This document shows positions 8,374 to 11,300 of a DNA stretch of 64,000 bases, piece after piece. The translations under genes were made by a program, and so were the position numbers. Positions within the stretch are counted from its first letter, which is position 1; every line of letters begins with the position of its first letter. The notes below the pieces were generated by a model that saw nothing but the letters and a program-made list of their open reading frames with translations, was not told the DNA's origin and ran no database searches. Source of the DNA: Albula goreensis (taxonomy: Eukaryota > Chordata > Actinopteri > Albuliformes > Albulidae); assembly GCA_022829145.1 (NCBI GenBank), contig CM040761.1, positions 14,504,245 through 14,568,244 of the forward strand. The letters run 5' to 3'.

Positions 8374-11300
8374 CTGAAGAAAGAGCGAAAAGTTGGGGAG
8401 TGACAAACTTGTGAACGCAATTTGTGAAAGCAAAATCTATGTATTCTCCTTCTTGCAGACGACTCATGTGTCCAGGTTTAAGTGATAGCTCTGCAACAGG
8501 TATCTTACCTGAGAGTGTGGTTCTGCTAGCTTCTCTGGAGGCCACTCGTTGTCCCTGTCCCTATCTCGGTCTCTCTCTCTTTCCCTTTCTCTTTCTCTTT
8601 CTCTCTCTCTCTCTCGTTCTCGATCACGGTCTCGATCTCGATCACGGTCCCGGTCACGTTCGCGGTCACGTTCTCGGTCTCGATCCCGGTCACGGTTCCT
8701 GTGCCGGCTGCTCTGGTGAGTGGAAGACCTGGCGGCCTTCTGTATGACCAGGTGATCCTGCCCATCACTGGGAACCTGCCAGTCACACGGAAAAGAAAGG
8801 GAGGGAGGGGTGTCCATCAGCGGCATTACGGTCAGAAACAGCACACCCCTTTCCACCAGCCCAAAGAGTGAATGTTCCAAAATGCCCACAGGACCCCAGG
8901 GGGAGGGACAGGCCAACCAAGAGGCAGACGCTCTACTGTGCATGTGACACTTATCAATTGGCACTGGCAATAGCCATCACAACAATTACATTTAAGTGTT
9001 GTAGACCAGTGTTTTTCTCCTCCTGTCTCATGGATTTAAATCGACTATTTCTGAAAACCATTACAGTGAAACTTCCATTCCAGTTAAAAAGGAGTTGTGT
9101 TAAGGTAACTAAGAGATTATGGCACTGGAATATGAGAATAGGATTCTGTTCAAATTCAGTTTTTTCATGGCCTTCAGTTGAAAGGTCACATGAGTAGTGT
9201 TTCACTCATCGCTAAGGTAGACCAGACTCAAAGAGTCCCTTACTTCCCCTAAAATAGATGTTCTCAGTCAGCATGTCAATGAGTGGAATTCCAATGCTGC
9301 TAATGACCATAAACTCAACTGGTGCTGCCTCCCGCAATTTAAAAGCCGCTGCCCGCCACATGTGATGGCGGCAAGTTTGTTTGTGCCTGTGGTTGGACTG
9401 TCCCTGCCACCCCAGGACCCCAAGCGCGTTTTGGAGTGCCGCACGGGTGACAGCGTGCACCTGTGGTTCCTGCAGGCAGCAGGCTGAGCTCCAGACGGCT
9501 GTGAAAACATGCATCCTGCCCCCTCCTCTGCTCCCAGCCGCAGGCCCACTCCCCACACATGCTGTTAGCCGTCCCAGCTAACCCCCGGCCCCCGGTGGTG
9601 ACATCACATCACGCCAGGAAACCACATGGCAGATCCATCACATGACTGCCCTCGCAGAGAGAGACAAGAGGCTAACTGCACCACCCGGACTGTGGTGCTT
9701 CGCTTTTGGGTCTGCCACATCCCACTCACTGCGTATGTGCCAGATTTGAGCGCTTAAACATTTCAAGAATCTTTTCCACCTTTCGCTTTCATGGTAAATT
9801 AAAAAAAACATCACCCATCGCTGGGTGAGTCAGCGTGCTGGTTGAGTCTTGAATTCTTAGGCCAGTTGAACCAACTACACTGATCATAAACATTACCATG
9901 TGCAACAAGGAATATCGGGTGGTGTCATTTGAAATCTACATGTAGCTGCAAATGCAACTTGGTTTTCAGTATCACAATGCAAACATCATCTTATCCGAAT
10001 CTACCTGAGGACTGCCAGCAGTGGCTTTCTGTTGCTGTTTAAGTAAAAGCCACTTCAGTAAAATTGTTGAGTGTTTTAACAATAGAGACGTAATTTTAAA
10101 ATTGAGAACAATAGCAGGGTTTTCTGTACAAATGGAATTAATTACAGAACAAGCCATTTCGCAGTAATCTTTCGCTGTGCCCAAACTGCCCACTGCAGAG
10201 TAAATATGTGATACGGGCACACGCCCACACGATGCCCACAGCAAAAAAAAAAAAGGTATGCTGAGATCCTTCAGTTATCCTCAGGGAGACCAGGGGGCGG
10301 TACAATAACAAGGAGGAGAGGAAACTGCCCTCCCTCCAAAACCACTTCAGTGAGTGACCTAATTCCCCCCCACTAGCGGCAATCTGTCACCCCAGATCTG
10401 AGAAGCCAACATATGATGGATCTGCTCATGGTTTCATGTTCATTGTATAACAAAAATAAGAATAAATGGTACCATCATACACTGGATAAAAAAATGTCAA
10501 ATAAATCAATGTTGATTAATAATGTTAACTGCATGCATCAGCGGCTTGGTTACTGGTGAGTAAGGGTGCAATACACAAATGTAATACCATGGGAGAGGAG
10601 ACTACAGGAGGGACTTTCATAGAGAAGCTATGTTTTATATTATTCTTTGAATTAAACAGAGGGAAAAGGCATTTCTTGATGCTCGGATTCCTTCCATCGT
10701 CGAATTCTGTCTGCAATATAAGATGCAAAAGACTCCAGTGGCACATTGGAAAACTCAAGGCAGGGAACAGCACAATCTTTGTTGTTTTATTCACCAAAAG
10801 AAACACATAGCACACTTCAATATTTAAATAAAGGCAGAGAAAATTCAGTGTTTGCTGTGTTTGATTTGGTTCCCATTGAAAGCACTGATGTAGGTCATCC
10901 TTGCTTTGCTTATTATTATGCTGTTTAAATCCAGTACCGGGTCCTTTCATCAAATTTCCATCTGCTGACTTTGACCAAAAAAAAAAAAAAACACTGCACT
11001 CCGGAAACTGTCCGTGTTGTTATTTGGGACTGAACTGAAGCTCTTTTCCTATATCTTCCAAAAAAACAGTAAAGCAATACCAACTTATCCAGTCCTCCGT
11101 CCACAACACAAATTGTTTAACTGTAGTGAAATCCAGCTTTTAAGAATTTCTTTTTCAAATTTAAAAGCAGTGAAGTGAAAAGCATAACAGGTTAATAAAC
11201 AAACAGCAATACCAGATAAAACATGTCTAGACAAAACTATGGAGCAGTCTTACCAGTTGCTCCAGGTGTAAGCAGTGGCATTCGACTCAATGGAGTCAAT

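Follow-up and report, generated by a model that had tools for sequence, protein, structure and literature searches.

The window analysed here is a stretch of 64,000 nucleotides of Albula goreensis (contig CM040761.1, positions 14,504,245 to 14,568,244). A CDKL5 gene lies on its minus strand, with exons from 60391 down to 8008 (Table 1). The original prediction had named the gene as CDKL5, which is borne out by both the kinase-domain match and the exon lengths. In a search of solved structures, the first 275 residues match the human CDKL5 kinase domain with E=4e-174, far ahead of CDKL2 (the runner-up kinase at 5.8e-88), CDKL1 and CDKL3. Exons 3-10 (35, 46, 137, 121, 60, 91, 190 and 81 nt) and exons 14 and 15 (106 and 124 nt) have exactly the human lengths listed in the tables of PMC4912119, and for exon 13 one of five possible boundary pairs yields the human length of 102 nt. 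A single match to exon 19 is found in the 932-Mb genome. Exon order, exon lengths, kinase domain, poly-Lys stretch and [11 protein letters not shown]-terminus ETAL are shared with human and mouse CDKL5. Downstream of CDKL5, on the opposite strand, a discoidin-domain exon matches retinoschisin (RS1) with E=1.8e-36; we take this to be the known CDKL5-RS1 neighbourhood. Scans of the window with Rfam and with a tRNA finder in its bacterial setting each gave 0 matches.

Table 1. Features in the window, in window coordinates
Feature	Position	Strand	Remarks
CDKL5 coding exon 2	60391-60328	-	
CDKL5 exon 3	51924-51890	-	
CDKL5 exon 4	28001-27956	-	
CDKL5 exon 5	27423-27287	-	
CDKL5 exon 6	26999-26879	-	
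CDKL5 exon 7	25367-25308	-	
CDKL5 exon 8	23947-23857	-	
CDKL5 exon 9	22780-22591	-	
CDKL5 exon 10	19526-19446	-	
CDKL5 exon 11	16216-16049	-	168 nt, one surplus base
CDKL5 exon 12	15786-14706	-	donor chosen from two in-phase candidates
CDKL5 exon 13	14037-13936	-	102 nt; boundaries chosen among five candidate pairs
CDKL5 exon 14	13327-13222	-	
CDKL5 exon 15	13087-12964	-	
CDKL5 exon 16	11907..12012	-	encodes KKKKKK, likened to human C-terminal NLS
Candidate cassette exon	10710-10588	-	123 nt, stop-free, phase 0/0, fair acceptor
Second candidate cassette exon	10268-10146		123 nt
Tract exon (exon 18 of PMC4912119; 17 in older numbering)	8509..8775	-	267 nt, AG/GT sites, phase 0/0
(Arg-Asp/Glu)24 tract, 48 residues	8551..8694	-	uninterrupted
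Tract units 1-13			Asp-rich
Tract units 14-20			purine-rich RE core
Tract units 21-24			Asp-rich
CDKL5 exon 19, coding part	8008..8373	-	encodes [10 protein letters not shown], C-terminus ETAL, stop
RS1-like discoidin-domain exon	461-784	+	

An Arg-Asp/Glu tract in the CDKL5 tail

The tract exon differs from its counterpart in human and mouse. There it has 120 nt (PMC4912119), which leaves no room for the tract, while the 267 nt found here amount to an in-frame gain of 49 codons. The equivalence to human exon 17 that had been proposed is right for the exon itself but uses the older number, as the 120-nt exon is called 18 in PMC4912119. Both ends of the exon had been expected to align with human, and they do. 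Joining the flanks gives an alignment score of 71 with the human exon, where shuffles average -11 and 0/1000 do as well. Fewer insertions and deletions over evolution are described for CDKL5 than for MeCP2 or FOXG1 (PMC6888432), which makes a gain of 49 codons less usual; in the passages of that paper at hand, the words 'repeat' and 'arginine' are absent.

Translation of the window shows an unbroken series of 24 R-[DE] dipeptides, exactly the number and the place that had been claimed, read from the minus strand at 8694-8551. Its 24 positive and 24 negative residues give a net charge of zero, and the whole exon is likewise neutral (29 plus, 29 minus residues). Arg alternates with Asp or Glu in 24/24 units, the long alternation that defines an Arg-enriched mixed-charge domain (R-MCD). 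The six Arg codons claimed for the Asp-rich parts are all present when both parts are pooled: units 1-13 use only the four CGN codons, and AGA and AGG are supplied by units 21-24. The centre, predicted as near-pure (GA)n, does contain a pure purine run of 46 nt, but the GA is mixed with some AAAGAG. In the six frames of the window, other runs of at least four R-[DE] units occur only at 22392-22415 and 22964-23015, both in GA-rich repeats, and at 39250-39227 (four units).

The tract sits between KKKKKK of exon 16 and the NES-like stretch of exon 19, which we take to be the equivalents of the human C-terminal NLS (784-789) and NES (836-845), respectively. NLS, NES and conserved C-terminus are all found in the tail by sequence comparison with the human protein. 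The C-terminal ETAL conforms to the class I PDZ ligand pattern. The CDKL5 tail is described as containing two NLSs and one NES (PMC9444073, PMC9167277), and a review reports that the tail binds PSD-95 (PMC9444073). This tail has further simple runs: exon 12 encodes one rich in Gly, and exon 19 has six Ser.

One defect is seen in the gene; the original prediction mentions neither it nor the minus strand. Exon 11 is 168 nt long against 152 in human (PMC4912119), that is 15 plus 1 extra, and this one surplus base brings the reading frame, as assembled, to a stop where the kinase domain ends. Such a break would be expected from an assembly artefact or a dead gene, in which the tract length or the whole gene copy would be unreal. 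This is extremely unlikely in view of the other exons, which are open, have AG/GT sites and include the ten of exactly human length; in addition, the tract holds its frame while varying from unit to unit, and exon 19 occurs once in the genome. Since the remaining exons are open, we think a sequence error or a rare allele likelier than an old dead gene.

Constraint on the tract and probable growth of the repeat

An in-frame (GA)n repeat always reads as poly-RE, whatever the frame, so a microsatellite explanation had to be tested. Among the 24 hexamer units of the tract, 14 are distinct. Positions 2, 4 and 5 are invariant in 24/24 units, only C or A occurs at position 1, and the remaining variation falls on positions 3 and 6. 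At least 13 substitutions are needed to link the units, and all of them preserve R-[DE], which a random substitution does with probability 0.333 (P ~6e-7). If units exchange pieces, 7 events suffice and P is ~5e-4. As the tract was picked for being uninterrupted, the test was repeated with R-H and R-N, two units to its left that may have decayed, counted as bad; 2/15 then gives P 3e-5 and 2/9 gives 0.008. Simulation of duplication plus mutation yielded 145,747 arrays having 14 or more distinct units; 0 of them contained 24 perfect units in a row, and the nearest had 5 bad units. Such diverse simulated arrays are heavily mutated, with a median of 19-24 bad units.

CpG content was also compared. 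The observed/expected ratio is 1.65 in the tract and 0.38 in the window. When codons are resampled according to their usage in this gene, 30 CpG are expected against the 16 observed, and for this reason CpG alone argues little; the codons of the tract are not simply those of the gene.

The same genome provided controls. A protein search with the tract exon, in which the best 150 of 28,171 candidates were scored, gave 84 matches that were merged by eye into 68 places. All 67 places besides the CDKL5 tract were compared, their neutrality being presumed, and the 24-unit window at each place was chosen to maximise good units. Among the matches listed, 12/67 other places have 24 or more perfect units. 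Eleven of these consist of GA or GAGACA repeats that are almost uniform, having 1-4 distinct units. The twelfth (L062/L079, C4:36229214-36229360), in an exon that we take to be NCOR1-like, has 31 R-[DE] units in an unbroken run, and the best window of 24 units there contains 9 distinct ones. At least 10 distinct units are present in 18/68 places, where the CDKL5 tract keeps 24/24 good units, one further place (L060) keeps 22/24 and the remaining 16 keep 13-17/24. L060 has 15 distinct units and a longest unbroken run of 12 units, and it adjoins two same-strand places that match a human NELF-E fragment with 61-63 percent identity. From this position, L060 most likely represents the exon for the RD domain of NELF-E in this fish. 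In its variation the CDKL5 tract thus resembles coding RD domains and not repeats. As a separate observation, a hexanucleotide array of great length at C13:26224500-26228500 (L065) contains R-[DE] runs of up to 38 units, and three frames of one strand stay open over long distances.

A plain GA microsatellite as the full explanation is rejected by the invariant positions 2, 4 and 5 together with 14 distinct units, by the simulations and by the same-genome controls. The claim that the amino-acid pattern is maintained survives the substitution count, the simulations and these controls. The sequence pattern suggests that the tract has been kept by selection, and this fish CDKL5 tail carries an in-frame mixed-charge domain that is apparently constrained. 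The seven units at the centre differ from the rest in being near-uniform purine. This fits more recent growth of the core, which looks like the most recently grown part of the tract.

Expansion of a GA-type and hexanucleotide repeat in the exon for a disordered tail, tolerated and without function, has to be weighed against selection. It would agree with the reading of in-frame GA as poly-RE, the uniform purine centre, the Gly and Ser runs of the same tail and the GA repeats with at least 24 R-[DE] units at several other places in the genome, and the tract is known from one genome. It leaves the invariance of positions 2, 4 and 5 over 14 distinct units unaccounted for, and it is contradicted by the neutral simulations and the same-genome controls. 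We consider functionless growth possible but rather unlikely.

Mixed-charge domains and nuclear speckles

The best solved-structure matches of the tract exon are NELF-E, Protein RED and DHX15, with the membrane protein FAM155A among the weaker ones; the best matches are composition-driven, as is the match to Pfam PRP38_assoc (31.1 bits, cut-off 25). The predicted likeness to NELF-E holds up in this structure match and in the diverse NELF-E-like array at L060. R alternates with D/E in the RD domain of NELF-E as it does here, and the human chain of the solved structures likewise counts 24 dipeptides, with RN before them. The hosts differ, a pausing factor there and a kinase here, and the NELF-E-like tract of this fish differs in being interrupted. 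Common descent of the tract by copying of the NELF-E exon is rejected: the two agree in 99/144 bases, and 417/500 unit-order shuffles are as similar or more. Alternating Arg and acidic residues are likewise found in U1-70K (SNRNP70), NELFE and other speckle R-MCDs. Those proteins act in RNA processing.

Ricciardi 2009 is said to be the reference for CDKL5 at speckles. The original prediction had placed mammalian CDKL5 in speckles, and reviews do describe a shuttling protein that co-localises with them in mammals (PMC9444073, PMC9167277). Experiments reported in PMC9324279 connect alternation of charge with this compartment. In HeLa cells, a fusion of (DR)50 with GFP localises to nuclear speckles, and NELFE and SNRNP70, which alternation sends to speckles, relocate to the nucleolus when the same charges are arranged in blocks. 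A (DR)12 peptide showed no phase separation, the speckle-targeting construct having 50 units, and a positive net charge strengthens speckle uptake (PMC9324279). The net neutrality of the exon argues for a modest speckle affinity.

Our preferred reading, to which we give a probability of about 0.45, is that the tract is an R-MCD which arose by tandem-repeat growth in a tail exon, was selected for alternation and gives CDKL5 an affinity for speckles. Tandem-repeat growth inside one exon of the CDKL5 tail would have produced the mixed-charge domain, and selection would then have preserved the alternating pattern of R followed by D or E. In the cell, the tract would behave like the RD domains of NELF-E and U1-70K. 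By analogy with these proteins, it probably raises the affinity of CDKL5 for nuclear speckles. Such a weak multivalent affinity could shift the balance of the shuttling kinase towards the nucleus and its splicing bodies.

Two other functions of the peptide were considered. As a rigid spacer, the tract would form one long helix that holds NLS and NES apart. AlphaFold2 predicts for the exon alone one helix over residues 21-77, with block-mean pLDDT of 95-98 over 31-70. This is a single-sequence model of a repeat and weighs little. Strict alternation of charge puts like charges four residues apart and disfavours a single helix, and we hold the spacer to be very unlikely. As an import signal, the tract would be recognised by transportin 3 in the manner of the RS-like domain of CPSF6 and open a second import route. 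TNPO3 imports CPSF6 through its RS-like domain according to a review, both sequences alternate R with acidic residues or Ser, and the tract exon matches the CPSF6 chain of 6gx9 weakly (E=0.015 and 0.011). That match is composition-driven, the comparison is one of sequence, and the tract has no Ser to phosphorylate, which makes such a signal highly unlikely.

In the literature surveyed, the tract appears to be a known kind of domain, the R-MCD, in a host for which such a domain was not found reported; titles and abstract openings on CDKL5 speckles, tail, orthologs, splice variants and repeats were covered, with most subscription journals outside this survey. Loss of the brain kinase CDKL5 leads to a severe human epilepsy, and how the tail sorts the protein between cytoplasm, nucleus and speckles is still unsettled. 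A natural fish variant with a speckle-type domain beside the NES would be a ready tool for this question. Furthermore, the codon pattern combined with same-genome controls offers a way to separate a coding charge repeat from a microsatellite.

A possible role of the purine core as RNA

The purine-rich stretch could also act in the RNA, either by enhancing splicing or as a GA-multivalent segment by which speckles capture the mRNA (interstasis), with the peptide as a by-product. The 46-nt purine run of the tract is the longest in the joined CDS (taken without exon 13). AGA, AGG and CGA make up 16/24 Arg codons in the tract against 16/59 elsewhere (p=0.0012, rest of the CDS without exons 11 and 13). 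As the dose of R-MCDs increases, speckles retain the GA-rich mRNAs that encode proteins with these domains (PMC12629991), and the tract resembles such mRNAs as a mixed-charge tract in purine-rich RNA with AGA, AGG and CGA. It differs in that only its core is purine-rich, its exon is short and its host is a fish; amphibians and earlier-diverging species show the published codon bias less strongly, and retention is lower for GA-rich RNA located near exon junctions in short exons (PMC12629991). Moreover, wobble positions vary in the Asp-rich parts, and synonymous resamples reach the observed repeat score in 18/300 cases, by a simplified score and not the published one. The purine core may also act as RNA, but a peptide that is only a by-product is improbable.

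A combined reading joins both levels. A NELF-E-like RD domain gained by this signalling kinase between NLS and NES in a fish lineage would let repeat length tune the share of kinase in speckles, and its purine coding would put the mRNA under the same speckle feedback. We regard this as doubtful and a good deal less than probable. If true, a single expansion would capture both the CDKL5 protein and its mRNA.

The human protein has 960 aa, and the protein of this fish would have ~1047 aa by exon arithmetic. Zebrafish Cdkl5 is described as 1039 or 1080 aa, its short form exceeding the human protein by 79 aa; the passages covered on zebrafish report lengths and splice forms and contain no sequence of the tail. 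With this extra length, zebrafish Cdkl5 may hold a similar tract. Elsewhere in the tail region, the first candidate cassette exon of Table 1 lies at the position of the human 123-nt cassette exon 17 and of a zebrafish cassette exon, and a second candidate for it lies nearby.
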